Positions 2,512 to 27,227 of a stretch of DNA of 29,206 bases are shown piece by piece. The DNA lies in the IMG/VR virus record IMGVR_UViG_3300030419_008190, positions 1 to 29,206 of that record; one strand, given 5' to 3'. The notes beneath the pieces were generated by a model. It was given only the letters and a program-made list of their open reading frames with translations, searched no databases and was not told the DNA's origin. The position numbers and the translations under genes are program-made. This DNA is from a virus. The number at the start of each line of letters is the position of its first letter. The first letter of the stretch is position 1.

Positions 2512-3192
2512 ATGCCTAAGGCAAAAGAACAGCCCAAGTTCGAAGATAAGATAGAGGAAATTGACAGGGAAATCCAAAAAAGGAAAAGTAAATGGAAGCT
2601 CTCTGTACTATCTTGGATGGACTATGATGACGTAGCTCAAATATTGAGGCTACATATTTATAAAAAATGGGAGATGTACGACTCCCAAAAACCTCTTGGT
2701 CCTTGGTTAAATAGAATAATTTCCAATCAAATTAAAAATCTAATACGCAATAACTATGGGAATTATTGTAGACCATGTTTGAAATGCGCAGCGGCTCAAT
2801 CTTATGACTTATGCGCAATATACGAGAAGCAAGGACCCCCATGTCCAATATATATAAATTGGGTTAAAGGTAAAAAAAATGCCCATGATACAAAATTACC
2901 AGTTTCAATAGAGAACCACCAATCAGAAGTACATAGTAAATTCTATGAACAAGAAATAACTCATTCGATAGAAAATTTTAACGAAGCTTTAAAAAAAGTT
3001 TTAAAACCTATGGAATGGGAAGTCTATAAACATCTTTATATAGATTTAGAGTCCGAAGAAGATTTAGCTAAGAAAATGAATTTCAAAACTAATGAAAAAA
3101 ACAGGACTCCCGGATACAAACAAATAAATAACATAGTCAAAAAAATTGTTGAGAAATCCAAAAAGATGTTAAACGAAGGTGTTGATCTATAA
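2512..3192 (+). CDS. Phage RNA polymerase sigma factor (sigma-70 family, late-type)
   Basis: 226 residues. Residues about 30-82 match sigma region 2: MDYDDVAQILRLHIYKKW, then YDSQKPLGPWLNRIISNQIK and NLIRNNYGNY, the core-binding and -10-recognition helices. A cysteine-rich insert follows (Cys86, 89, 92, 101, 111), as in related phage sigma factors, and probably binds zinc. Residues about 150-215 form a second helical domain resembling region 4, with an EEDLAKKMNF helix-turn-helix start and a basic recognition segment. Region 1 and most of region 3 are missing, so this is an alternative factor like those that drive phage late transcription. It lies at the head of the late-gene block, which supports that role. 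Its target could be the AGTGTAA element seen at several gene junctions, but this is inference. Confidence 0.8.
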   Translation: MPKAKEQPKFEDKIEEIDREIQKRKSKWKLSVLSWMDYDDVAQILRLHIYKKWEMYDSQKPLGPWLNRIISNQIKNLIRNNYGNYCRPCLKCAAAQSYDLCAIYEKQGPPCPIYINWVKGKKNAHDTKLPVSIENHQSEVHSKFYEQEITHSIENFNEALKKVLKPMEWEVYKHLYIDLESEEDLAKKMNFKTNEKNRTPGYKQINNIVKKIVEKSKKMLNEGVDL

Positions 3193-5305: not shown

Positions 5306-7138
5306 ATGTGGTATTGTCCCGATAAATATAAAAAGAATGTCGACAAAGTAAACGAAAGTTTATTGGAGATCCAAGGGGAGTTAGAGGACAAGCAGGCTAA
5401 AATAAGCTTAGCGAAATTTCTTAGAAACAATCTATCTTTTACGGTAGAGCTTTTATGCGGAATAAAGCTGGCTCCATTTCAAGAAGTAACTTTGAGGGGA
5501 ATGCTAAATCGCAACTTTTCTATGTGCGTCTGGGGGCGTGGATGTGGCAAGTCTTTTATAGGAGCCATCTTCTGCATTGTGCAATGTATATTCGAACCAA
5601 ATACAAAAATTATTATAGCAGGACCTACATTCAGAACAGCCAGATTCATATTTAATAATATAGAAAAAATAGTTGAAAGCAAAGACGGTCAACTTCTCGC
5701 TCAAGCTTTTGAAATAAAAAATAAGTCAAAAAGAAATGATCAGTTTGAGTGGAGAATAAATGGAGGCACTATAACAGCGATACCATTAAGCGGAGAAAAG
5801 ATACGTGGTTTTCGAGCAAACATTTTGGTGTTAGACGAGTTCTTGCTACTCCCCGAAGAAACTATTAAGACGGTTCTTATGCCATTCTTAGTAGCCCCTC
5901 AAAATATGGCGGAGAGGCTTAAAGTCAGAGAGATGGAAGATAAACTGATTAAGCAAGGAGTAATGGAGGAAAAAGACAGAATGGAATTTGAAAATACTAC
6001 AAAAATGGTAGCTCTCTCTTCCGCTAGCTTCACATTCGAAAATTTATATAAAACTTATCAAGAATGGTTATCTAATATTCAAGATCAAAAATCAGAAACA
6101 GACATTCAATACTTCGTGTCTCAATTAAGTTATGAAGCTCTGCCAGAAGACATGATCGACAGAACTGTTATAGAAGAAGCCGCCAATGGAGGCTCTTCTC
6201 ATTCGTCTTTCCAAAGGGAGTATTGCGCTCAGTTTACAGATGGAAGCGATAGTTATTTCAGCGCAAAAAAGATGCATGAATGTACTATTCCTGACGGAGA
6301 GTCTCCGACCACTTTAATAGCTGGTAATCCAGATAAAAAATATATTTTAGCTATTGACCCCAGCTTCAGTAACAGTCCTAGCTCAGATTATTTTGCAATG
6401 TCTGTGATGGAACTAAACGAAGAGAAAGAGCAGTCTGTATTAGTTCATGGATATGCTGTCGCAGGAGGGGATTTGAAAGATCATATAGAATACTTAAGTT
6501 ATCTTTTAAAGTCCTTCAATATCGTGTTTGCTACTATAGACAACGCTGGGTCTCAATTTATCGACAGTGCAAATGAATCAAAACACTTCCAAGATAACCC
6601 TCTTAGTTTTTTCGAATTTAACTCTGAGAAAGAAGGCGTAGAGTATCTAACTCAATTAAGAAAAATAAAAAATGAAGTTAATGTATCCTCGGGGAAGATA
6701 TTTTATAGGCAACTCTTTACTAGTCCGTTTCTAAGAAATGCAAATGAATATTTACAATCTTGCATAGACCACAAAAAAATTTGGTTTGCTTCGAGAACAA
6801 CTGCTAACGAGGCAGCGTTTAATAAAGCAGTTTCTGCTAAAATCAATATAAAGTTAACCAAGCACGAATCTGTTTTAGACTTAATAGAGTTTCAAGATTC
6901 GTTAATATACGGGACAAAGAAGCAATGTGCTTTAATAGAAGTTAAGAGTACCGCTATGGGAAACCAGAGTTTCGATCTACCTCAACATTTAAAAAGGTCT
7001 ACCTCCGCTAACAAAGCCAGAAAAGATAATTATACTACTTTAATGTTAGGCGCATGGGCCGCCAAGTGCTACTTCGACATGACAAATGCAAAGGAGGAAA
7101 AAGTAACTCAAACTTTTTCTCCAATAATGCTACAATAA
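5306..7138 (+). CDS. terL: Terminase large subunit
   Basis: 610 residues, the usual size. The packaging ATPase domain shows Walker A WGRGCGKS at 76-83, Walker B ILVLDEF with Asp177-Glu178, and the coupling motif region VALSSASF. The C-terminal RNase H-like nuclease has YILAIDPSF (Asp351), a following Asp361, FATIDNAG (Asp412) and a late acidic cluster (DLIEFQDSLIYG). It drives ATP-dependent DNA translocation through the portal and cuts the concatemer. It is the most reliable marker that this is a tailed phage. The start follows the microprotein stop by one base with no clear Shine-Dalgarno, so translation is probably coupled. An FtsZ-like gene follows instead of the usual portal or protease gene. 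Confidence 0.96.
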   Translation: MWYCPDKYKKNVDKVNESLLEIQGELEDKQAKISLAKFLRNNLSFTVELLCGIKLAPFQEVTLRGMLNRNFSMCVWGRGCGKSFIGAIFCIVQCIFEPNTKIIIAGPTFRTARFIFNNIEKIVESKDGQLLAQAFEIKNKSKRNDQFEWRINGGTITAIPLSGEKIRGFRANILVLDEFLLLPEETIKTVLMPFLVAPQNMAERLKVREMEDKLIKQGVMEEKDRMEFENTTKMVALSSASFTFENLYKTYQEWLSNIQDQKSETDIQYFVSQLSYEALPEDMIDRTVIEEAANGGSSHSSFQREYCAQFTDGSDSYFSAKKMHECTIPDGESPTTLIAGNPDKKYILAIDPSFSNSPSSDYFAMSVMELNEEKEQSVLVHGYAVAGGDLKDHIEYLSYLLKSFNIVFATIDNAGSQFIDSANESKHFQDNPLSFFEFNSEKEGVEYLTQLRKIKNEVNVSSGKIFYRQLFTSPFLRNANEYLQSCIDHKKIWFASRTTANEAAFNKAVSAKINIKLTKHESVLDLIEFQDSLIYGTKKQCALIEVKSTAMGNQSFDLPQHLKRSTSANKARKDNYTTLMLGAWAAKCYFDMTNAKEEKVTQTFSPIMLQ

Positions 7139-7150: not shown

Positions 7151-7302
7151 CTAGAATAATTTTAGATATAGTGCCAAATACAGACTATAATCAATACGTT
7201 TCGAGAAATAAATTAATAAAAGAAGCAAGCAACTTCTCTTTAAGAACATTTCAACAAGCGCAAAAAGACCTTAAAAAAGCAAAACTTAAAGAACTTAAAA
7301 AA

Positions 7303-8568
7303 ATGTCAGACGAAAATGTACAGCCTGTAGATGTCGGGGATGTTCCCACCCCCGGAGAAGCCCCCGCTGCCCCTGCAGCGCCTGCCCCAGAGCCAACACC
7401 AGCAGCTCCTGAATCAAATTCAGTAGAAGAGCCAGTTATTGAACCAACTGAAGCTTCTCAAGACAGCTTTGTAGATGAATACGCTGTAGATGTCCCGGAT
7501 ATTCCTATTCCGGATGAGGAGCCAGATTCTAATACTATAGAGGATGAGTTTGAGGGAGCTTATAAATTTGCTGTTGTTGGAGTAGGGCAAGGAGGCTCCA
7601 GAATCGCACAAACCTTTTGGAGTCTTGGCTATAGGAGAGTAGCTATAATCAACACCGCAAAACAAGATTTAGACCCTATCGATATGCCAACAGAAAACAA
7701 GCTTTTGGTCGGTGGAGACGGAGCAGGAAAGAAACCTGAAGTAGCGGAAGAGATATTCAATGCTCATAGAGAAGACATCTTAGACTTCTTGAAGAGAACG
7801 TTCGGGGACGAATTTGATAGAGTTTTAGTATGTGCTGGAGCAGGTGGTGGAACAGGAGCAGGAGGATGTAGTGTCGTTATAGAAATAGCTCATGACCTAT
7901 GTGAAAGCTTAGGAGTTGAAACTAGGGGAGAGGGAAGCATTGCTAAGGTTGGAGCGATTGTAGCTTTGCCAAGCAAAGCCGAAGGTAACAGAGTCGCTTC
8001 TAATACTAAGAGAACTATGCAAAAGGTTCTAGAGCTAAAGGACCTTGGAGCCTTAACGCCATTAGTGTTATTGGACAACGAGAGGATTAAGCAGATATAT
8101 CCTAAACTTCCTGTTAGAAAATTCTGGGGAACATCCAATAATAGCGTTTGCGCTCTGTTCCACTTGTTTAACAGGATATCAGCGCAGGAATCAGTATATA
8201 CTTCATTTGATAAAGCTGACTTAGAGACCGTATTTGCTTCTGGTATTATCACATTTGGAGCTACCCCTCTCAGAAAATGGGCTCAGCCGACAGATGTTAG
8301 TCAGGCGATTAGAGATAACTTAAAAAAGACTATTTTAGCTGACCTAGATCCATCTTCTGGGGATATTGCGTCTTGCGTCGTGATTGGTAATCAGGACGTA
8401 TTAGACGAACTGCCTCAGGAAAACTTAGAATATGGGTTTGAGCAGTTGACTAGAATTTTAGGAGAAGGTTCTACCGTCCATAGAGGTGTATATAGCGGCA
8501 ACAAGCCGGGCATGATAATCTATACCGCTATAGGAGGGTTAAACGCTCCTAAAGGATTTTCAGATTAA
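7303..8568 (+). CDS. FtsZ/tubulin-family GTPase
   Basis: 421 residues from ATG 7303. The frame stays open upstream to a GTG at 7171, which would add 44 lysine-rich residues; neither start has a clear Shine-Dalgarno. The first 85 residues are acidic and Pro/Ala-rich, so probably flexible. The GTPase core follows: T1 loop VGVGQGGSR at 92-100, INT at 116-118, T3-like GGDGAGKKPEVAEE at 137-150 (as GLGAGxNPExG in FtsZ), the G-box GGGTGAGG at 181-188, and the T7 loop SFDKADLETVF at 301-311. Asp303 and Asp306 match the catalytic NxDxxD Asps of FtsZ. All loops needed for GTP binding and polymerisation-dependent hydrolysis are therefore kept. Phage tubulins are known (PhuZ, TubZ), but this one looks closer to FtsZ. 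It lies between terminase and portal, suggesting a link to capsid or packaging, or interference with host division; this is inference. Confidence 0.85.
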   Translation: MSDENVQPVDVGDVPTPGEAPAAPAAPAPEPTPAAPESNSVEEPVIEPTEASQDSFVDEYAVDVPDIPIPDEEPDSNTIEDEFEGAYKFAVVGVGQGGSRIAQTFWSLGYRRVAIINTAKQDLDPIDMPTENKLLVGGDGAGKKPEVAEEIFNAHREDILDFLKRTFGDEFDRVLVCAGAGGGTGAGGCSVVIEIAHDLCESLGVETRGEGSIAKVGAIVALPSKAEGNRVASNTKRTMQKVLELKDLGALTPLVLLDNERIKQIYPKLPVRKFWGTSNNSVCALFHLFNRISAQESVYTSFDKADLETVFASGIITFGATPLRKWAQPTDVSQAIRDNLKKTILADLDPSSGDIASCVVIGNQDVLDELPQENLEYGFEQLTRILGEGSTVHRGVYSGNKPGMIIYTAIGGLNAPKGFSD

Positions 8569-8581
8569 AAGGTAATACAAA

Positions 8582-10543
8582 ATGGCAGCAAAAAATAAAA
8601 ACGAGCAAATTTTAGGGGAGCCGCTAATGGCCTCCTATACCGATGGAGGCAAAGCTAAACCTCTAAGAGTTTCTACGGCGAGGCAAACTCAGACAAGGAG
8701 AAACAAATCTTCCGTAATAGATAGATCTGATCGATTTGTGAATATTGAGGAAGGGCTAGTCCCTTATCAGTATTCTAAAGGAGTAAAGAACCTGTCTAAT
8801 ATTGACGTTAGAGATGCAGTTATTCTTTGCCAGAAAGCTTACTATAATTTTTCTGTATTTAGAAATACTGTAGATTTGATGACAGAGTTTTCTACTAGCT
8901 CTTTGTATTTTAGCGGAGGTAGTAAAAAGTCTAGATCTTTCTTTACCGCTTTATTTAAAAAAATAAATATAGATAATTTAATAGATCAATTCTTTAGAGA
9001 ATATTATAGGTCAGGAAATGTATTTATATATAGATATGATGCAGATTTAGAATCTGAAGATATATCTAAAATTACTCAAGTATATGGCCTGCAATCAAAA
9101 GCTAGCGTTAAGATACCTGCAAGATATGTAATTTTAAATCCAGCGGACATTCAAATCGGAGGAAACATATCTTTTGTTGCTGGCAAATTTTATAAAGTAT
9201 TAACCGACTACGAATTAGAGAGATTAAAAAATCCAAGAACAGAAGAAGATCAACAGGTATACGACTCTCTTTCCCCAGAAGCTAAAGAAGCTATTAATAA
9301 AAAAGGTAATCATATTGTTTATTTGAATTTAGATTCAGATAGAATATTTCCAGTATTTTATAAAAAACAAGATTACGAACCATTTTCTGTTCCGATGGGT
9401 TATCCAGTTCTAGAAGATATAAATTTTAAAGCTGAATTAAAGAAAATGGATATGGCTCTAACAAGGACAATACAACAAGCTATCCTGTTAGTCACAATGG
9501 GAGCTCCGCCAGATAAAGGAGGAATAAGTCAGAGAAACCTAGAGGCTATGCAGACTTTGTTTGATAACGAGTCTATAGGCAGAGTTTTGATATCGGACTA
9601 TACGACTGAAGCTAAATTTGTAATTCCTGACATAGCAGGGATACTTGATCCTAAAAAATATGCTGTAGTAGAAGACGATATTCGGATGGGCCTTAATAAT
9701 GTTTTAGTTGGCTCAGAAAAATTCGCCAATACGAGTATAAAAGTTCAAGTTTTCATAGAGAGGTTAAAGGGAGCAAGGCAAGCCTTCTTAAATGACTTTT
9801 TGATCCCAGAAATAAGAAGAGTGTCTCAAGCCTTAGGTTTTAAGAGTTACCCTGATCCAAGCTTTCATGATATCGACTTAAAAGACGATTCAACTTACGC
9901 TAGGATATATAACAGATTAATAGAACTAGGTATATTAACACCTGAAGAAGGAATAGAAGCGTTAAGTACTGGTAGGCTTCCGACTCCAACTGAATCTATG
10001 GAGTCTCAAGAGGACTACAGAGAATTGAGAGACAAAGGGTTCTACGAACCTATAATGGGAGGACCTCATTCAAATTCTCCAAACGAAGAGAACCAAGAGG
10101 TGGTAGATAAAGAGACGGAAGAGGCCCCCAAGAAGAAAAAGCCTGACAATTCTGGAATGGTTGGTAGGCCTCCCGGGACAACAGGAATCCCGCAGCAGAG
10201 CAAAAAGGTCAGCCCAATAGGTGCTACTTTTAGTTTAACTAAAATTCAAGAAAACTTGGCGAGCTCCGAAAAGCTTCTCAAAGAAGTCGAAGGAGCGCTT
10301 AGGAAGAAACACGGGTTGAGAAAAATGTCCAGAAAGCAGAAAGAAGTCGCTCAAGAAATCTCTAATATCATTGTAGCGAACGAAAACCCGCAAAACTGGA
10401 GCTCTAAAGTAGAGAGTTATATAGAACATCCGAAAGATACCAATCCGGAAAGAATTAAAGAGATCGACTCTATAGCTTGTGAACATAGCGTAGATTACTT
10501 TTTAGCTAGCATACTCTACTTAAGTAAAAATGAGCAACAGTAG
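8582..10543 (+). CDS. Portal protein
   Basis: 653 residues. The N-terminal 420 residues fit a phage portal: SNIDVRDAVILCQKAYYNFSVFRNTVDLMTEF near 75-105, an RSGNVFIYRY strand pair, a KIPARYVILNPADIQIGG wing segment, then TRTIQQAILLVTMGAPP and a stem/crown-like helix rich in basic residues. Such proteins form the dodecameric ring through which DNA enters the head. The C-terminal 170 residues are an addition: an acidic and lysine-rich linker with GRPPGT, often seen in portal tails, then a separate helical segment (LTKIQENLASSEKLLKEVEGAL). Position two genes after terL supports the call. A weak AAAGG lies 9 bases before the ATG. The gene overlaps the next one by 14 bases. No capsid protease or major capsid gene follows in this window. 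Confidence 0.82.
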   Translation: MAAKNKNEQILGEPLMASYTDGGKAKPLRVSTARQTQTRRNKSSVIDRSDRFVNIEEGLVPYQYSKGVKNLSNIDVRDAVILCQKAYYNFSVFRNTVDLMTEFSTSSLYFSGGSKKSRSFFTALFKKINIDNLIDQFFREYYRSGNVFIYRYDADLESEDISKITQVYGLQSKASVKIPARYVILNPADIQIGGNISFVAGKFYKVLTDYELERLKNPRTEEDQQVYDSLSPEAKEAINKKGNHIVYLNLDSDRIFPVFYKKQDYEPFSVPMGYPVLEDINFKAELKKMDMALTRTIQQAILLVTMGAPPDKGGISQRNLEAMQTLFDNESIGRVLISDYTTEAKFVIPDIAGILDPKKYAVVEDDIRMGLNNVLVGSEKFANTSIKVQVFIERLKGARQAFLNDFLIPEIRRVSQALGFKSYPDPSFHDIDLKDDSTYARIYNRLIELGILTPEEGIEALSTGRLPTPTESMESQEDYRELRDKGFYEPIMGGPHSNSPNEENQEVVDKETEEAPKKKKPDNSGMVGRPPGTTGIPQQSKKVSPIGATFSLTKIQENLASSEKLLKEVEGALRKKHGLRKMSRKQKEVAQEISNIIVANENPQNWSSKVESYIEHPKDTNPERIKEIDSIACEHSVDYFLASILYLSKNEQQ

Positions 10544-12623: not shown

Positions 12624-14627
12624 ATGGCTAACAAAAAAATATCTCAGTTAGATCGAGTAACGACTCATACGTCAGACGATCTGGTAGCGGTAGTAAACAA
12701 TGGGTTTACTCAAAAAACTACTCTGTACGATCTTGACAGGTGGTTCCTTGGGAGCAGCTGTGACGGGGACATTTTCGTAAGTGGTAATCTGATAGCCGGA
12801 TGCATAAACACAGGAGCGGGAAGCAATTATAGTATTCTAGGTGGAAAACACAACAGAGTATCCGGTGATTTCTCTTCAATAGGAGCAGGGGAAAATAATT
12901 TAATATCAGGGCACGCATACGATGTAAGTCACGCTGATGCAGACTATAACTTTATTGGCGGTGGAGCAAATAACACATTACAAGGAAGAAAGTCATTTAT
13001 TGGAGCGGGAGATAACAACGAAATTTTTCCCGGGGCCTTAAGAAGTACTATTACAGCAGGAACGGCTAATAAAATAAGAACCGACTCTGATACCTCATTT
13101 ATAGGAGCTGGAAATGCTAACATAATAGGAGGAGGGGATAGCAATACAATAGCAGGTGGAGGTAATCATTTAATATCTGGAGCTGGAAACTTCATAGGAG
13201 GAGGGGACAGTAATACAATTAAAGCCCAAGACGCTAACAGCTTTCTATATGGCTTTATTGGTGGAGGGTATAGCAACTTATTGTCTGGCGACGGAAGTGA
13301 TTACTCTTCTATCGTAGGCGGATATGATAACACCTTAGTAGAGTCGTCCTATTCAACAATACTCAACGGAAACCAAAACTCTTTATATAACGGAGATGGT
13401 ACAACAGTAGGCGGCTATCAAAATACTGTTACTGGAGACTACAATGTGGTATTTGGATACGAAAATAATGTTTCGGGCTCTAGGAATTTTGTTTTCGGAA
13501 GGAATGTCCAATTAGAGCCAAGTGGATCAGACTCTCAAAACGGGCAAGTTGTTTTCGGGGACTCCAGCTCAGCACCAACGAAAACTTTTGGCAACAAGTC
13601 CATGACTCTAGACTTCGAAAGTGGTGTTCATATTTCGGAGGGTCAATTGCATGTGCATGATATGCGGGGAGAGTCCGCCATCTTAACTAACGACAAATAT
13701 CTTGCCTATAATGTTGAAGAAGGGGTTATATATACGATTAACACAAACTTGGCTTCTGGAGGCGGAGGAGGCAGCGGCCCGACTGGCCCAACAGGAGCTC
13801 AAGGCCCTCAAGGGTCTTCAGGAACTTCAGGAGCAGTAGGACCCACTGGGGCTACAGGCCCGCAAGGAGCTACAGGACCTCAAGGGGCGACTGGGCCTCA
13901 AGGAAATACAGGTAATACAGGCCCTCAAGGAAATACAGGTCCTAGCGGAACTTCAGGAACCTCAGGAACTTCTGGTTCTTCAGGTTCCTCTGGAACTTCA
14001 GGGACATCTGGCGCAGGAATAAACTTTACGTCGATAGCAAATCAAGCTGTCTTATATGAGAAAGACGATGCTGTTCTAGGAGACGCTGAACTCAAGTTCG
14101 CCCCGTCAGACGAATCTCCTTATGGACTTATCCTTGATGGAGCTAGGATAGTTTTGGGTGATGAAAATTCATTAACAGCTGATGGCAGTGCTTATGACAG
14201 TTCTAGTGACGCCTTGAACCTCAACGCAAGAACAATGAATCAGTACTCTTTGAGAGTTGATTCGAATGGTGCTGCCGGTGGAGATATTTATATAAATATT
14301 CAAAATATGGATGTTGGTCAAAGCTTTTTGTTGACTCTATATAATGAAGATGGAGCTTCAGGAATCGGAATGGATTTATTCCTTCAATTTGATGGAACAG
14401 ATATTGCCAGTATGGATGCTTCGGCCACTACTATGTTTTTAAGCAAGTGTAAGCCACATGCTACCCAGAGGACATTTGCAGAGCCAGCAAGAATTAGTGG
14501 TAAAGCTTTGCATAGGCTAGAGTTCCAGAAGATTCAACTAAGCGCTTCTAAGACCGCGATACTATGGAACGAAGATGTATTCGGAGAAGTAGGAGCGGGG
14601 GCCTATCCTAACACACTAAGCGTATAG
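12624..14627 (+). CDS. Tail fibre / adhesin with glycine-rich repeats and collagen-like stalk
   Basis: 667 residues. Residues 1-42 ([20 protein letters not shown], then TTLYDL) are the short N-terminal module often found at the start of phage fibre proteins, probably for virion attachment. Residues 70-292 hold about 14 degenerate repeats of the type (S/F)-hIGGGxxNxI, as in the beta-roll heads of trimeric adhesins. Residues 385-463 form a Gly-X-Y stalk: collagen-type GPT, GPQ and GAT triplets, then GTS and GSS triplets. Residues 464-667 form a C-terminal domain that may be the receptor-binding tip. The product should be a trimeric fibre. No chaperone or tail-fibre assembly gene follows. The threonine-rich triplets could be sites for sugar addition, and two glycosyltransferases are encoded nearby, but no link is shown. 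Confidence 0.8.
12831..13500 (+). repeat. Degenerate IGGGxxN coding repeats in the fibre
   Basis: About 14 imperfect copies of a unit encoding (S/F)-hIGGGxxNxI occur, for example [26 protein letters not shown] and [13 protein letters not shown]. Near-identical DNA stretches such as AGGAGGGGA(T/C)AG(C/T)AATACAAT at 13130-13150 and 13196-13218 show recent duplication of at least one unit. Unit length varies from about 13 to 25 residues. Confidence 0.6.
13776..14012 (+). repeat. Collagen-like Gly-X-Y coding repeat
   Basis: About 26 consecutive triplets with Gly in every first position. The first half is [12 protein letters not shown] (collagen-like) and the second half is GTS/GSS. The DNA carries short direct repeats such as ACAGGCCCTCAAGGAAATAC, so the number of units may vary between related phages. 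Confidence 0.85.
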
Positions 14628-19585: not shown

Positions 19586-22111
19586 TTAAGCTCTTAGATC
19601 GGCTAATTTCATATAAATATTCCAATTTTGGATAACTATGTAATCTGCGAATATGCAGTCTTCTTTGGTCAACCCTTTTACCATCACTATGCTTCCCTTT
19701 TCTGGAATCTCGCCATTATTAAGGTCTCTGCATCCGGTTTGAATTTTATCGCTAAAGATCAAGACGGTAAATTCGCCTGATTCGTCATCTAGATTAAGCC
19801 TTAAATAGTCGTTTCCGTTCTTAGACTTGCTAAGCCTGCTCTCTGTAACAGTGGCGACCATTTTAGCCTTAACGTTCACACCCAAAGCTTGCATCTCTGC
19901 AATATTCACAATGCCCGGGTCTTTAGTCATAAATATGTCTTTAAGAGACTTGCCATAAGTATAACCAAGTAAATTATTTTCATAATACCAGTTAGCAAAC
20001 TCTTCGTTCTTTCTATTCTGCCTGTATATACCTTCGTATGGCTTTTGTTTTTTAAGTATAGTTTCGAATCTAGACTCCTTAATAACCAGCTTGCCTTTTT
20101 CGTCTTTGTGAGTCTTTAGCTGTTTAAGTATTTTGATCAAATCGTATTCATAGTCTTCCTTGAGCTTATGACACCATTTTTTCTCTCTTTGAGTTAAGAT
20201 GCTCCATATTTGAGCTTCTAGAACGGTCCGTGTTCTTGAGTTCTTAAATCCATCTAAAGCTCCTGCTTGGATAAGGCAGGAAAGTATCCCTAATCCTATA
20301 CCGCAGTCTGAAGCAGATTGAAATATCTCGAACTTATTTGTGAATTCTGTTCTAAAATCATTTAACTTTTCAATCGACTTATCTGAAATGCCCTTAATAG
20401 ATAAAAGGCCAAATCTAATGTTTTCACCTTCAATACTAAAATCCATTTTAGATTTAATTAAATGAGGTCTTAGTAACTTTATATTAAAATAATCTAACTC
20501 TTTTTGAATTTTAGTTATTTCTGCTATTGGGTCAGGCTCAAATCTAGTCATCTTTAATAAAGCTAGAAAGAACTCTTTAGGATATTTAAATTTAAGGTAG
20601 GCGGTTATCGCTGATAATGCTGCATATGAAATTGAATGAGACTTGTTAAAAGAGTAGTTCGCAGAGTCCTCTAATACGCTCCAGAGAACTTTACCTATTT
20701 CAGTATCTAATTTATTGTCTTTAATTTTTTGGGAAATCTTCTTTTTCCATTCCCTAACCTCTTTCACCTTCTTTTTGCCAACTATTCGTCTCAGAATTTC
20801 AGCCTCATCTAGAGTGAAGCCGATCTTGTGAGCCATTTGCATCATCTGTTCTTGATAAAGGCAAACCCCTCCTGTAGTAGACAAGATATCATCAAAGAAA
20901 GGATGTATAGGCTCATAAACATCATTATTTGTAAAGTTAGCGTACTGGTCGACGAAAGCCAAAGCTCCCGGCCTACCCAGAGCTAAGACAGCGCTTAGTT
21001 CTTCTAAGTTCTTAGGTCTAACTTTTTGGCATACCTTAAAGTTTGTATCAGCCTCTATTTGGAATACTCCATGCTTAGCTTTCAAGTCGTAGAAGTGCTG
21101 GTATATTTCTGGATTCGTAAAATCTATATCATATATCGAGATTCCGACCTGTTTGCAGATGTCGTCTACGACAGAGACGCTTCTAAGCCCTAAAGCGTCG
21201 AGCTTGACATTAAAGAGGGAAACCCAGTTCATGTCATACGATGAGACTGTAGATTTATCAGAAGAGAGCTCCGTAGGGCAGCTTTTATCCATCTCTGAAT
21301 AAGACAAGAGTATTCCCGAAGCATGAACCCCCCTATTCTTTATTAGGTTTCTGAGTTTAAGGGCGATTTTGTAAGCCTCATCATTTTCTTCGCACCATTC
21401 CCTAAAGTTATCTACTTCCTCATAGGTTTCTTCGATATCTTTTACTATTCCAAAAACCTTGGGAATCATACTAGATACAGCGTTCATCTCTACTTCTGTT
21501 TTTGCGGCTACGATCTTGCCGCATTCTTTGATTAGAAGTTTTCCACTTAGAGTATTAAGCGTTAATATCTTTGAGGTTTTTCCTTTGAACTTTTCTTCTA
21601 GATATCCTAGAACCTCAGATCTTTTGTAGTAGCAAATGTCGATATCTACATCGCACATTAACTCTCCATCTAGATAGGTTACTCCATCTACGATTTGTTT
21701 CTTAGCTCTAATTTTAGATACAAATCTTTCGAAGAATAAATTATACTTTATTGGGTCTAATCCTGTAACTCCTATAAGATATAAAACTATACTACCCGCA
21801 GCTGAACCACGTCCTAGGCCAGTGGGAACATCGCTTTTTTTACAGAAGTTTACAACATCCCAAATCAATAATATATAATCCGTAAATCCAAGTTCATTCA
21901 AAGTATCTAATTCGTATTTGATCCTTTCGATGTACTTATCTGGTTCAGAAGCAGATATTTCGCCTCTCTTGAGCTTCTCTTCATACCCATCGTAACATAA
22001 CTTAACTAAAAAATCGAAATTAGAAGATACTGTCTTGTCCTCAATTTCAAACGAGGGCAACCTGACCCCATGTAAGGGCAAATCTATTTTTTTAAATTCT
22101 GAAAGTTTCAA
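19586..22111 (-). CDS. dnaE: DNA polymerase III alpha subunit, polymerase part (no PHP domain)
   Basis: 841 residues, shorter than bacterial DnaE (about 1,160) because the N-terminal PHP domain is absent and encoded two genes upstream. The polymerase motifs are intact: GLGRGSAAGS at 98-107, CDVDIDI with Asp154, Asp156 and Asp158 (catalytic pair), KLDALGLRSVS with Asp305 (third catalytic Asp), the GVFQIEADTNFKV motif and the fingers segment ANYSFNKSHSISYAALSAIT. A C-terminal OB domain follows near 755-820 (GNDYLRLNLDDESGEFTVLI). The protein should replicate the phage genome as a C-family polymerase together with the exonuclease and PHP pieces encoded upstream. The ATG overlaps the exonuclease TGA (ATGA). 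C-family polymerases are less usual in phages than A or B family. Confidence 0.93.
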   Translation of the reverse strand: MKLSEFKKIDLPLHGVRLPSFEIEDKTVSSNFDFLVKLCYDGYEEKLKRGEISASEPDKYIERIKYELDTLNELGFTDYILLIWDVVNFCKKSDVPTGLGRGSAAGSIVLYLIGVTGLDPIKYNLFFERFVSKIRAKKQIVDGVTYLDGELMCDVDIDICYYKRSEVLGYLEEKFKGKTSKILTLNTLSGKLLIKECGKIVAAKTEVEMNAVSSMIPKVFGIVKDIEETYEEVDNFREWCEENDEAYKIALKLRNLIKNRGVHASGILLSYSEMDKSCPTELSSDKSTVSSYDMNWVSLFNVKLDALGLRSVSVVDDICKQVGISIYDIDFTNPEIYQHFYDLKAKHGVFQIEADTNFKVCQKVRPKNLEELSAVLALGRPGALAFVDQYANFTNNDVYEPIHPFFDDILSTTGGVCLYQEQMMQMAHKIGFTLDEAEILRRIVGKKKVKEVREWKKKISQKIKDNKLDTEIGKVLWSVLEDSANYSFNKSHSISYAALSAITAYLKFKYPKEFFLALLKMTRFEPDPIAEITKIQKELDYFNIKLLRPHLIKSKMDFSIEGENIRFGLLSIKGISDKSIEKLNDFRTEFTNKFEIFQSASDCGIGLGILSCLIQAGALDGFKNSRTRTVLEAQIWSILTQREKKWCHKLKEDYEYDLIKILKQLKTHKDEKGKLVIKESRFETILKKQKPYEGIYRQNRKNEEFANWYYENNLLGYTYGKSLKDIFMTKDPGIVNIAEMQALGVNVKAKMVATVTESRLSKSKNGNDYLRLNLDDESGEFTVLIFSDKIQTGCRDLNNGEIPEKGSIVMVKGLTKEDCIFADYIVIQNWNIYMKLADLRA

Positions 22112-22749
22112 ATTTCAATCCTCCATTTTAGTTGATTCCAGATCAACATATTAAGCTCTAAATCTTTTAAAGCGTCATGCAAATTTTCGTAATCAAACTC
22201 TATCTTGAATTCTTTACCTAGGGAAGTTTGGTTGGTTCTGATTCCTCTAGCTCTTCTATAATGCATTTTGTGCTGAAACTCTACTAAGCTTTTCCCCTCA
22301 GGCAAAGGCTCATTAAGCTTGTAGGCTTTAGCGATACAGTTGGTATCAATAAACTTTTCTACTAGATGATCCCAACTTTTATTCTGCAAATGGTACCACT
22401 CCTTGATCAAGTGAACGTCGAATCCAATAATGTTATGGCCAATTATATTGTCTGCGTCATCTAACCACTCAGACAATTGAGCAAAAGCGTCACGAGAAGA
22501 GACAGCTCTCGACATGACTTTATTTTTATTAAACTTTGTTATCCGAGCAGCATCAGCGCTTATATCTAAATTGGTTTCTGACCACCAATCTACATAGATA
22601 TCCCTCTTATCAATAATCTTGTCTTTCTCCGTCTTTATCATCGCGACCTGCCAAGGACGATTGTGTTGGAAGTTTAAACAAAGATTAAAAGTCTCTAAAT
22701 CAATAAAGACGTTCTTCTTATCTTGAAACCTTATTAAATGCTCATCCAT
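22108..22749 (-). CDS. DnaQ-like proofreading 3'-5' exonuclease (DEDDh)
   Basis: 213 residues from ATG 22749. That start has an AGGATCAGGA purine run upstream and overlaps the previous gene by only 8 bases; the longer frame from 22782 adds 11 basic residues. Exo I is FIDLETFNL (Asp17, Glu19), Exo II is IIGHNIIGFDVHLI (Asp111), and Exo III is ENLHDALKDLELN (His191, Asp196). These are the five DEDDh residues of DnaQ, PolC-exo and related nucleases. The stop overlaps the polymerase start, so exonuclease and polymerase are translated together. It is the proofreader of the split Pol III core. Domain order in the operon, PHP then exonuclease then polymerase, is that of PolC. Confidence 0.9.
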   Translation of the reverse strand: MDEHLIRFQDKKNVFIDLETFNLCLNFQHNRPWQVAMIKTEKDKIIDKRDIYVDWWSETNLDISADAARITKFNKNKVMSRAVSSRDAFAQLSEWLDDADNIIGHNIIGFDVHLIKEWYHLQNKSWDHLVEKFIDTNCIAKAYKLNEPLPEGKSLVEFQHKMHYRRARGIRTNQTSLGKEFKIEFDYENLHDALKDLELNMLIWNQLKWRIEI

Positions 22750-23494
22750 TTTCCTGATCCTTTCCTTCTTCCCAAGACTCAAAAGAAAACTTATCAGAGC
22801 TCATATATAGAAGCTCTGGCTTATCTAAAGTGCTGCGGTTGTTGATGCATCTAAACGTAAGGTAAGATTTAAAATCGGAGTTTTTATAGTAGTAAATGCT
22901 TTTTACTTTTTGCGTTTTCTCTTTCAAGGAAAGCACTTTTTCTTTAGTTATATGGTCTAGAATCAAATTGTTATCTTCTAAAAAATAAGTTGGCTTGGTG
23001 AAGTTGAACTTAGGGTAACAAATATTGTTCGTAAAAGAATTGTTATAAATATAAGAATCGTAAAAAGGGATGCATAACTGTAGATCATCACCCCACTCTT
23101 TTTCTAGGCTTTTATAATCTGTTCTAGGGTAATAGTAAAAACCATCTTTTGCGGCAGTCGAATATAATCTAATTAATTTCTCATAACCTTTAGAGTTTTT
23201 CATAAAGACTATAACTTTTGATTCAGATAATCTAGATTCTTCATCTTTTTTGGATAGGTCATCGCATACAGTAACTCTTAAGCCAAAAATGAAATTAATT
23301 TTATGTTTAGTGAAATTCGTATAAGCCTCAAGAAACCCTCCCATACCGTCTTCTACCAATAAAGGTTTTTTTATTTTATGATTTAAGCAAATAGAAATAA
23401 TTGAGTCTGGGCTTGTCGACTCTAATTCGTCTTTGTCTTCTAGCGTTAAAATACTTCTTCCAACGCTATAGTGAGATTTAAAAATAGGTAACAT
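22742..23494 (-). CDS. Stand-alone PHP-domain remnant of DnaE
   Basis: 250 residues. The order of motifs follows the N-terminal PHP domain of DnaE: FKSHYSVGRSIL near residue 5 (DnaE HLHVHSxYSLLDG), then LLVEDGMGGFLEAYTNF (DnaE ITDHGNMxGxxEF), HKINFIFGLRV (GIKPIIGxE) and a C-terminal KPELLYMSSDKFSFESWEEG, which fits the YLKSxEEM joint that leads into the palm. Most metal-binding His and Asp residues are replaced, so the domain is probably structural and not catalytic. It ends where DnaE's polymerase part begins in the gene after the exonuclease. It is therefore the missing first module of the 841-residue polymerase. It overlaps the exonuclease start by 8 bases. Confidence 0.72.
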   Translation of the reverse strand: MLPIFKSHYSVGRSILTLEDKDELESTSPDSIISICLNHKIKKPLLVEDGMGGFLEAYTNFTKHKINFIFGLRVTVCDDLSKKDEESRLSESKVIVFMKNSKGYEKLIRLYSTAAKDGFYYYPRTDYKSLEKEWGDDLQLCIPFYDSYIYNNSFTNNICYPKFNFTKPTYFLEDNNLILDHITKEKVLSLKEKTQKVKSIYYYKNSDFKSYLTFRCINNRSTLDKPELLYMSSDKFSFESWEEGKDQENG

Positions 23495-24545: not shown

Positions 24546-25445
24546 TTAACGAGTTTCAAAAAACTCTTGGATTTCCTTAGTGCTCATTTCTCCAAAATCG
24601 TTTTTAGGAGGTAGAAAGACTTTCGATTGATTAAAAGAAAAGTATTTATCTAGTCTTTTTTTCAGTTTAGTGGCAGCTTTATTACCTGCTTGACTTTCGT
24701 CATTATTTAAAGATATTTTTATTTCAGTAGGGTTTAGCTTTATTAACGTATTTAAAACAGATATACTGGCATCTAAACCGAAAAGAACTATAGTATTTTT
24801 TACCCCCGCATTCCAAAGAGAAAGCATATCTCCGACGCTTTCAATTAGTATAACTTTCTTTAGTTTAACTAAAATATCATGATTGAATTGTAGAGGGTAA
24901 ATCCAATTTGACTTTATCCCAATATGTTTCCATTTTACTCTTGTGTCTTCTGGAGCAAAAGTTCTTCCTGTGATTCCTATTAGTTGCTGATGTTTATTAA
25001 ACACGGGGAAAACATATCTATTTTTCATTTTCCCATTTAAAGATATTCCCCCTTGAAAAACGTTAATTGTTTCCGGGCTAATACCTCTGTTTACCCAATA
25101 AGAATGGTCTTTTATAAGATGGTCTAACTGCTCTTTTTTGAAAATCTTAACTTTATCCTTTGAGTCAGGAGACCTTTTTATCGTAGTTATGGGCGATGAC
25201 AGATTCTTATCTGCTAAGATTTTTTTAGCTTCGTTAGAGTTGATGTTTAAAGTAACTTTTACTAACTCCTCTAACCTACCACCTATCCTCTCTTTAAAAT
25301 CGTACCATCTTCCGTCTGACTTGCTTATACAAAGAGAGCTATTATTGTCTCCACCTCTATAGACAGCATTAGTGCGGTACTCGTTGCCCCTGTCTAAAAG
25401 GTTTGTGTATCCTAAGTCGGTTAATATCTTTTCGAGGTCTTGCAT
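24546..25445 (-). CDS. DnaG-type primase with degenerate zinc domain
   Basis: 299 residues. The Toprim domain is clear: VILIESVGDMLSL with Glu202, LNNDESQAGNKAA with Asp249 (the first Asp of the usual DxD is Asn247), and PKNDFGEM. The RNA-polymerase-like N-domain is seen in YVFPVFNKHQQLIGITGR. The N-terminal 60 residues have the outline of the zinc-binding domain (SSLCISKSDGRWYDF, then GGRLEEL) but without the zinc cysteines and histidine, so template recognition may be unusual. It is half the length of bacterial DnaG and lacks a C-terminal helicase-binding domain. The ATG overlaps the helicase stop (TAATG), so helicase and primase are produced together. Confidence 0.85.
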   Translation of the reverse strand: MQDLEKILTDLGYTNLLDRGNEYRTNAVYRGGDNNSSLCISKSDGRWYDFKERIGGRLEELVKVTLNINSNEAKKILADKNLSSPITTIKRSPDSKDKVKIFKKEQLDHLIKDHSYWVNRGISPETINVFQGGISLNGKMKNRYVFPVFNKHQQLIGITGRTFAPEDTRVKWKHIGIKSNWIYPLQFNHDILVKLKKVILIESVGDMLSLWNAGVKNTIVLFGLDASISVLNTLIKLNPTEIKISLNNDESQAGNKAATKLKKRLDKYFSFNQSKVFLPPKNDFGEMSTKEIQEFFETR

Positions 25446-26941
25446 TATTCTAACAGCTCTTCCACTTCGTTATTTTCTTGTCCTACTTGTTCGTGATCAT
25501 TCGGAATAGCGTTATTAACGACATCTCTAAGCGATCCTCTGTCAGTAAGGTTAAAGTTCTCTACGTTGAAGTTCAAGTAGTTTATTGCCCAAGGCCCGTC
25601 AGAACCGTCCTCATTCCTTCGTCTGACTAAGTCTTGATGGCCTGTAGCGTCTCTTCCTTGATATCTTGTTTTTAAAGGTATTAGCTTATGAGTTCCGTAA
25701 GCTTGGCCATCTTGAGCCATCTCATCTTGAGTCTTCCTTCTGAATATAGCCACAAAACTTGCAAACCACTGCAATCTATCGGAGAGGGATATAGCGGAGC
25801 TATCATCTGTAACGTCGTTACCCCTTCTGCCTTGGTTTTCTCCAGATCTATTTAATTGAACTGCGGTAAAAATAGGAGATTTGGTTTCTTCTGATACTCT
25901 TTTGAGTTTGTCTACCTTGTCTCCTATGGCTTGATGCTCGGCCCAATTCTGCCCCATCTTTTCTCCAGTTAGTTTAACATAGTCGTAGCATATTAGACAC
26001 TTCTTTTCTCTGCCTACTTTAGAAAGATGCCATCTTCTTATAATTGAAGCTATTTGATCTACATTTTTATTAGCTACATGCTTATGATAGTATGGCCTGT
26101 TTTTAATAGTGCTCCAAGCTGCCCTAACTTTAGAAACCATATCCTCATTTCTCCTCCAATTACCTGTTTCAATATACCACAAAGGAACCCCCGTCATATT
26201 TGAAACCATTCTTAACTGAATTTCCAAAGTGCTCATTTCTGTATCGAGTATTAAACAAGGAGTATCGTTCCTTAACATAGTCTTATAAGCTATGTCATTT
26301 AAGAAAGTCGTCTTACCTTGACCCGGTCGAGAAGCTATGGCGTATAGGTTTGCTCCCCTAAGCCCTCCAAACATTGTGTTGAAAGTTGTATAAGGGGTCA
26401 ACAGCCCTGTATCATTATTTGGATTCTCTCCTAAGTCCTCAACTATCTCTTGCATGTCCTCAAAAAGATTTTTTGGGGCATCTTCTATATCATAGAGAGA
26501 TATGTTATCGTTATAAATTCTGTCTGCTTCGGCAACTATTTCATCTATTTGCTTATCTCCATTCTTTTTAACGAATGTAGACAAGTTGTTAGCGGATTCT
26601 ATAATCTCTCGCCGGATTCTCAGCTTAACTAATTCCTGAGCGGCATTTAAGGAAGCTTTTTCTGTAGCAGAAATATAAGAAATGTTTTCTATATAGTTGT
26701 GGATATCAATTTCCCCAACAAAAGATATACCCATATTATGAATTTTATGGGCTATGATAGTCTTGTCGACTTTATCGTCTTTAATACGAAGGTCCCTAAT
26801 TACGTTATAAATTACATAATTCTTGCTTTCGAAAAAATCATTTTCGGTTATGACGTGATCTATTTCCGAAAATAAATTCGGAAACTTCATTAATCCACTT
26901 AAAACTAGTCGCTCTACCGGGAGCGAATATGTATCAGACAT
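25445..26941 (-). CDS. dnaB: Replicative DNA helicase (DnaB-like)
   Basis: 498 residues, usual DnaB size. The N-terminal helical domain is recognised by LPVERLVLSGLMKFPNLF and ITENDFFESKNYVIYNVI. The RecA-like motor has Walker A SRPGQGKT at 204-211, a segment like motif H1a (TPCLILDTEMSTLEI), Walker B CLICYDYVKL, an SAISLSDRLQW region and the RYQGRDATGH arginine-finger region. It unwinds the duplex at the phage fork as a hexamer. A loader gene is not seen. The overlap with the primase and the 4-base gap from the acidic protein before it show one operon. Confidence 0.93.
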   Translation of the reverse strand: MSDTYSLPVERLVLSGLMKFPNLFSEIDHVITENDFFESKNYVIYNVIRDLRIKDDKVDKTIIAHKIHNMGISFVGEIDIHNYIENISYISATEKASLNAAQELVKLRIRREIIESANNLSTFVKKNGDKQIDEIVAEADRIYNDNISLYDIEDAPKNLFEDMQEIVEDLGENPNNDTGLLTPYTTFNTMFGGLRGANLYAIASRPGQGKTTFLNDIAYKTMLRNDTPCLILDTEMSTLEIQLRMVSNMTGVPLWYIETGNWRRNEDMVSKVRAAWSTIKNRPYYHKHVANKNVDQIASIIRRWHLSKVGREKKCLICYDYVKLTGEKMGQNWAEHQAIGDKVDKLKRVSEETKSPIFTAVQLNRSGENQGRRGNDVTDDSSAISLSDRLQWFASFVAIFRRKTQDEMAQDGQAYGTHKLIPLKTRYQGRDATGHQDLVRRRNEDGSDGPWAINYLNFNVENFNLTDRGSLRDVVNNAIPNDHEQVGQENNEVEELLE

Positions 26942-26945
26942 TACT

Positions 26946-27227
26946 TTACTCTTCTACGTCGTCTCTCCAAGACTCTTCTTCGGGAGGCTCATCCTCGCTA
27001 AATGATTCTTGAATCGATCCCATTGCTATTTCTTCATGTTGAATTTTACAAGCTTTAATGTAGCCTTCAGCATGAGAGATCAATGCTAATGTATGCATAT
27101 CTGAGTCAGAAGTGAAATAAACTTCGGGCGTCCCATTGGAGTTATAATTGAACAGCAGAAAACCTCCGTTAGAGCACTCGTTGATTTGATCCAACAGAGA
27201 CTTTGGGAATTTGAACTTTTCACTCAT
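26946..27227 (-). CDS. Small acidic protein of unknown function
   Basis: 93 residues, not recognised. The N-terminal 65 residues look folded (FPKSLLDQINECSNGGFLLF, then TPEVYFTSDSDMHTLAL). The last 20 residues are strongly acidic (DEPPEEESWRDDVEE) and unlikely to be structured. Position between the nuclease and the helicase suggests a replication accessory factor, and the tail could bind basic partners or mimic DNA. Only context supports this. The AGTGTAATTATTTG element overlaps the upstream stop codon and ends just before its ATG, so it could be expressed at a separate time. Confidence 0.65.
   Translation of the reverse strand: MSEKFKFPKSLLDQINECSNGGFLLFNYNSNGTPEVYFTSDSDMHTLALISHAEGYIKACKIQHEEIAMGSIQESFSEDEPPEEESWRDDVEE

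Follow-up and report, generated by a model that had tools for sequence, protein, structure and literature searches.

In chimalliviruses, PhuZ filaments centre the phage nucleus and bring procapsids for packaging (PMC8314001; PMC13282480). TubZ partitions plasmids, and the TubZ of the plasmid prophage c-st segregates its genome (PMC7950403). Among jumbo phages, two FtsZ/tubulin representatives have been recognised and tubulin has been tied to the multi-subunit RNA polymerase (RNAP) and the phage nucleus, while the survey's group 3.2, exemplified by phages G and c-st, has a Pol III-type polymerase together with FtsZ/TubZ-like proteins (PMC7824862). Here we analyse a tubulin-family gene in an IMG/VR phage fragment of 29,206 bp (the window) from an uncultured marine phage, i.e., a virus of bacteria. 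As the first-pass annotation had it, the gene lies between those for the large terminase subunit (TerL) and the portal (Table 1). No study of this phage tubulin family was found in the literature, where it may nevertheless have been described before.

Table 1. Positions in the window of the tubulin gene, its parts and the neighbouring or compared genes
Feature	Position	Strand	Evidence
Terminase large subunit (TerL), upstream neighbour	5306..7138	+	Pfam Terminase_6N 1e-12; PHROG terminase 9e-24
Phage tubulin gene (FtsZ/TubZ superfamily)	7171..8568	+	PF00091 8.5e-16; alignments; AF2 and Foldseek
N-terminal extension VPNTDYNQY...LKK, lineage-conserved	7171..7302	+	dN/dS 0.06 against L002
Acidic Pro/Ala-rich tail, length-variable	7303..7482	+	Alignments; selection analysis
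Degenerate motif copy VDVGDVPTP in the tail	about 7327-7353	+	Direct repeat with 7475-7505
Family-specific motif VDVPDIPIP	7486..7512	+	Pattern in 47/65 relatives
T1 loop GVGQGGSR	7579..7602	+	65-sequence alignment; loop comparison
T3 loop GAGKKPEVAEE	7720..7752	+	65-sequence alignment; loop comparison
T4 signature GGGTGAGG	7843..7866	+	65-sequence alignment; loop comparison
T7 catalytic aspartates D..D (347/350 from the GTG)	8209..8220	+	Invariant in 65/65
Portal, downstream neighbour	8582..10543	+	Weak PHROG portal match 5e-4; solid synteny
DnaB helicase and p93, adjacent (empty site; tubulin between them in sister phages)	25445..27227	-	Locus comparison

Gene, GTP-binding loops and predicted fold

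The frame stops at 8568 and starts with a GTG at 7171, giving a protein of 465 amino acids; an alternative internal ATG at 7303 (MSDENV...) looks like the start codons of many relatives. All six complete representatives of the lineage with the terL-ftsZ-portal order keep the GTG, 30–33 nt behind the stop codon of TerL, and the partial L022 has the GTG as well. Because this spacing is conserved and the first 44 residues are under constraint (Table 1), 7171 is a reasonable start of the gene. The core of the protein has a dN/dS of 0.008 at a dS of 1.38 against a relative of 95% identity, indicating extreme purifying selection, and the frame is therefore a functional gene rather than a product of chance.

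The protein matches PF00091 (Tubulin) with 59 bits (cut-off 33). In an alignment of 65 diverse sequences with identities down to 27%, the residues of T1, T3, T4 and T7 are invariant or nearly so, and both T7 aspartates (codons 8209–8211 and 8218–8220) are kept in every member. The G-box and the T3 loop that the first-pass annotation had read here are present, and so are the two aspartates that it named Asp303 and Asp306, but these numbers count from the ATG at 7303 instead of the start at 7171 from which that annotation set out.

An early AF2 model from six sequences was too poor (pLDDT 57) and was replaced by a model from the 65-sequence alignment (pLDDT 89.7, pTM 0.90), for which the top Foldseek match was TubZ (TM 0.79, E = 6.5e-23), while CetZ reached TM 0.70–0.74 (CetZ2, 0.74) and FtsZ 0.64–0.70. 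Among viral structures (BFVD), the best match was an uncultured Caudovirales 'FtsZ', A0A6J5RW92 (TM 0.85, 28% identity), and a named PhuZ (Noxifer) gave a TM of only 0.53. PF00091, the model and Foldseek together reveal the Rossmann GTPase domain with GGGTG(T/A/S)G, the H7 core helix and the C-terminal activation domain that mark the tubulin/FtsZ superfamily, a fold which the protein is thus predicted to have. The earlier expectation of a tubulin-fold GTPase that polymerises gains support from the model and the conserved GTP loops. Because of the predicted fold and the invariant GTP residues, it is very likely that the protein forms a GTP-driven head-to-tail polymer, with GTPase activity and polymerisation expected from the superfamily.

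Family assignment and distribution

The likeness of the window protein to FtsZ extends to the fold, the T4 GGGTG, the T3 GAG..PEV and the T7 DxxD, and database labels of the 'FtsZ' type would fit the recent capture of a host ftsZ gene. However, the first-pass reading of an FtsZ T1 loop, and of a protein closer to FtsZ than TubZ and PhuZ are, found no support in the loops, the profiles or the tree. TubZ and CetZ have GxGQ or GxGM in T1 and FtsZ has GGGG, whereas the window protein has G-V-G-Q-G-G-S-R; its T2 is NTAKQDL and its T6 LDN, as opposed to NTDAQ and IPN in FtsZ, and the H7 of the phage family has Asn where FtsZ has Asp. A single-sequence search of the PDB returned TubZ (1.5e-11) and Aquifex FtsZ (2.5e-11), and profile comparison placed the protein nearer to the type formed by proteins of Bacillus pumilus, phage G and Alicyclobacillus (3.3e-43) and to TubZ (3.9e-38) than to FtsZ (4.9e-25). 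The FtsZ equivalog model gave the window protein 70.2 bits against a curated cut-off of 295.2, and tested members of the phage family scored 53–79 bits.

PhuZ formed a long separate branch (length 6.4). In the tree computed without this very long branch, in which the deep branches are long, the phage rows and plasmid TubZ split from FtsZ and CetZ with a support of 99/94, and the window protein stood outside the 16-row clade of bacterial and archaeal FtsZ, which has a long stem. The phage clade of 41 rows was supported at 100/97, and at a weak 87/43 when five sequences of the jumbo-contig type were included (46 rows). Forcing the phage rows together with FtsZ was marginally rejected by the AU test (p = 0.046). 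The equivalog score, the profiles, the tree and the loop residues thus show that the window protein does not belong to FtsZ. It is best treated as a separate phage lineage on the side of TubZ, the third among phage tubulins next to PhuZ and the phage/plasmid TubZ. The gene is phage-owned, and we give next to no credence to a recent host capture, which is disfavoured by the tree, the profile scores and the near absence of the family from a genome collection, where a scan gave three matches only, namely two contigs binned in metagenome-assembled genomes (MAGs) and an archaeal CetZ/FtsZ locus.

Over three successive scans of IMG/VR the number of matching stretches rose from 6 to 27 and then to 467, and 80 of them were kept. 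Since the relatives were gathered through degenerate patterns, these counts are lower bounds, and the records may be fragments. The family thus has at least 467 matches in IMG/VR, in contigs of uncultured, mostly marine phages, and the single match among cultured phages was the distant gp138 of phage G (27% identity over 59%). Exactly one tubulin-family gene was present in each of 15 records of 76–372 kb, as well as in each of 12 records of 17–372 kb that partly overlap with them. The TerL of the window matches at least 599 IMG/VR contigs, pointing to an abundant uncultured phage group, and had no near relative among the cultured phages of INPHARED. A 14.5-kb contig of this group (L118, CAJQGZ010000084.1) is binned in a MAG of a bacterium that itself encodes an ordinary FtsZ; this lead is too weak to name a host. 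One tubulin gene of the family (L110:857-2023) is in two pieces, through either a sequencing error or inactivation.

Gene position in related phages

The terL-tubulin-portal order is confined to a small clade comprising the window, L002, L004, L007, L008 and L047, with L003 and L022 partial. The junction between terL and portal is tight (18–36 nt) in 65 of 67 relatives of the window TerL, and in sister phages, which are otherwise largely collinear, the tubulin gene occupies other places. It follows the portal gene in 23 loci, 21 of which have a spacing of -4 to 9 nt. In 16 loci it lies between p93 or p139 and DnaB, with gaps of 3–5 nt for the p93 type and at most 64 nt for the p139 type; in eight its neighbours are SSB and a glycosyltransferase-like gene, and in L186, L188 and L230 it follows p689. 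About 25 further loci fall into a category 'other', as their neighbours were not nameable from the window proteins. A 144-kb relative (L056/L235, one contig) combines a terL-portal junction of 20 nt with a tubulin gene beside DnaB, and in the window p93 and DnaB are adjacent. Parsimony on four gene contexts requires three moves, one of them into the packaging position. Given the tight terL-portal junctions and the other contexts in sister phages, the gene has been relocated to its place between terL and portal in this lineage only, and this place does not mark a role specific to packaging. The synteny that the first-pass annotation proposed to check occurs within one small clade only, and its argument from the position among the packaging genes is weakened by these other contexts. 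Wherever its neighbours can be named, the tubulin gene sits in operons of core lytic genes.

The tight coupling to the portal gene in the best-sampled clade might alternatively suggest a structural or assembly GTPase bound to the capsid or portal, which would act without long filaments. We see little prospect for this explanation, as sister clades keep the gene in a replication operon and the polymer-interface loop T7 is invariant. By comparison, a TubZ-type partition function, in which a filament would segregate a plasmid-like prophage or pseudolysogen genome to daughter cells via a DNA-bound adaptor, has a precedent in c-st TubZ (PMC7950403), and the closest cellular relatives of the family are the plasmid TubZ types and phage G gp138. 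However, no small TubR-like gene is conserved beside the tubulin gene across its contexts, no iteron array was found near it, and the gene sits in head and replication operons. The lack of TubR and iterons speaks against a TubZ partition module, and we consider this function rather unlikely.

Several other genes were noted along the way. The Pol III alpha of the window is split into overlapping genes (19586-23494, minus strand) for a PHP protein (22742-23494), an RNase T-type exonuclease (22108-22782) and a PHP-less DnaE (19586-22111), and in one relative (L053:3318-5905) DnaE is in two pieces, reflecting a sequencing error or inactivation. A fibre-like protein (12624-14627, plus strand) has beta-roll repeats, which match the ice-binding model PF21300, and behind them collagen-like repeats. 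A small sigma-70 region 2 protein (2512-3192, plus strand), encoded between a zinc-ribbon-like protein and p363 and conserved across the phage group, may redirect the host RNA polymerase. An ankyrin-repeat protein, the C-terminal half of which resembles class III nucleotide cyclases by eye, is encoded in three relatives (L005:4397-5950, L006:4807-6360 and L007:948-2537), one of which also has an ammonium transporter-like gene (L006 12877-14091).

Terminal tails, proposed function and comparison with known tubulins

The acidic Pro/Ala-rich N-terminus reported before the core is indeed present, following the lineage-conserved extension. The family-specific motif of the tail, (D/E)x(LIVM)PDIP(MIL)P (PDIPxP), lies about 26–32 residues before T1 in 47 of 65 relatives. 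Most of the others carry degenerate forms, whereas the jumbo-contig sub-clade has none, and the motif did not occur in any further ORF of the loci. From its pattern of conservation it looks like a docking motif. At the other end, the protein of the window lineage stops about 10 residues past the last strand, the model ending in strand 344–353, so that neither a helix H11 with a C-terminal tail of the TubZ/PhuZ type nor the linker and peptide of FtsZ was seen in this lineage by sequence and model; judging by sequence, longer C-termini occur only in other sub-clades.

The D-I/V-P core of PDIPxP recalls, by eye, the C-terminal peptide of FtsZ, and this resemblance, along with the superfamily kinship, could point to interference with host division, whereby the phage protein would co-polymerise with or poison host FtsZ, or compete for FtsZ partners via its DIP-containing tail motif. 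Yet the interface loops are TubZ/CetZ-like rather than FtsZ-like, a poison would have no need of the T7 aspartates that every member keeps, and the motif lies 30 residues from the core and not at the tip. We therefore regard interference as distinctly improbable. Mimicry of the FtsZ peptide by the tail is kept as a weak idea, since only the D-I-P core is common and its place is wrong.

Taken together, we think it fairly probable that the tubulin of the window belongs to the phage itself, hydrolyses GTP and forms filaments, and that these serve positioning or transport in a PhuZ-like manner without a phage nucleus; the positioning or transport role suggested by the first-pass annotation is thus still the leading guess. 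Subunits would polymerise head to tail, the T7 aspartates of each completing the GTPase site of the next, and during lytic growth the dynamic filament would position replicating phage DNA or move procapsids or packaging complexes in the infected cell. As its conservation suggests, the acidic PDIPxP tail may bind the adaptor, a task that falls to C-terminal tails in TubZ, PhuZ and FtsZ. The cargo, the adaptor role and the cellular function are what we infer, with the delivery of procapsids by PhuZ (PMC8314001; PMC13282480) as a precedent for filament transport. Lytic positioning or transport is favoured over partition because of the placement in core operons, the single copy, the strong constraint and the absence of TubR and iterons. 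Against this explanation, the gene shifts between head and replication modules, pointing to no single cargo, the chimallin-like shell that is the cargo of PhuZ was not found in the large carriers with the phiKZ query (0/15), PhuZ is only a distant fold match, and no adaptor gene was seen to accompany the tubulin gene across loci.

More tentatively, and with some doubt, large phages without a nucleus might build a tubulin spindle that recruits capsids or portal/packaging complexes through the N-terminal PDIPxP tail and not through one at the C-terminus, which would constitute a third, widespread phage cytoskeleton. If so, filament-based traffic of capsids and genomes would not be tied to a nucleus-forming lifestyle.

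PhuZ carriers encode chimallin and a multi-subunit RNAP, whereas chimallin of phiKZ was detected in none of the 15 large carriers examined here (with phiKZ as a positive control, and with one query, which a divergent shell could escape) and RNAP beta in one of the 15, given that records may be fragments. The carriers thus resemble phages that have a tubulin but no phage nucleus, and the family departs from the reported link between tubulin, RNAP and nucleus, being mostly without the polymerase or a detectable shell protein. The one exception for RNAP beta, a 200.9-kb contig (L074), has a beta-type gene (PF00562, 1e-54) at record positions 41838-42851; the tubulin gene of this contig, at 36143, is some 5 kb away. 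The DNA polymerase of the window phage is of the Pol III type, as in group 3.2 of the jumbo phage survey (PMC7824862).

Compared with the described families, the window protein has its best PDB match in TubZ (RepX/TubZ of Bacillus, PDB 4ei7 and 2xka; 9.9e-33 by profile), with which it shares the side of the tree and the GxGQ/GxGM and DN loop residues, but it is only about 20% identical, its model is without the long C-terminal helix and tail, the phage family forms its own clade, and TubR/tubC are absent beside the gene. The best profile-profile match, the type of the B. pumilus plasmid tubulin-like protein, phage G gp138 and an Alicyclobacillus plasmid, is a separate clade with long branches in which the PDIPxP motif was not seen. 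CetZ resembles the family in its GxGQAGGR and NTAxxDL loops and the DN of T6, but is archaeal and chromosomal and groups with FtsZ in the tree. A0A6J5RW92, for which no study was found in the literature, is labelled 'FtsZ cell division GTPase' in the database and by structure probably belongs to the same family. Kinship with PhuZ, sought by sequence and fold with phiKZ gp39 as the reference, proved very remote, and the window protein has no C-terminal tail able to form the acidic knuckle of PhuZ. What the two share is that both are phage-encoded tubulin homologues of large phages. The occurrence of the present family in hundreds of uncultured phage contigs suggests that more phages build a cytoskeleton inside the bacteria they infect than the few examined so far would lead one to expect and, if filaments form, viral tubulin transport would be a general phage strategy rather than the speciality of one family.
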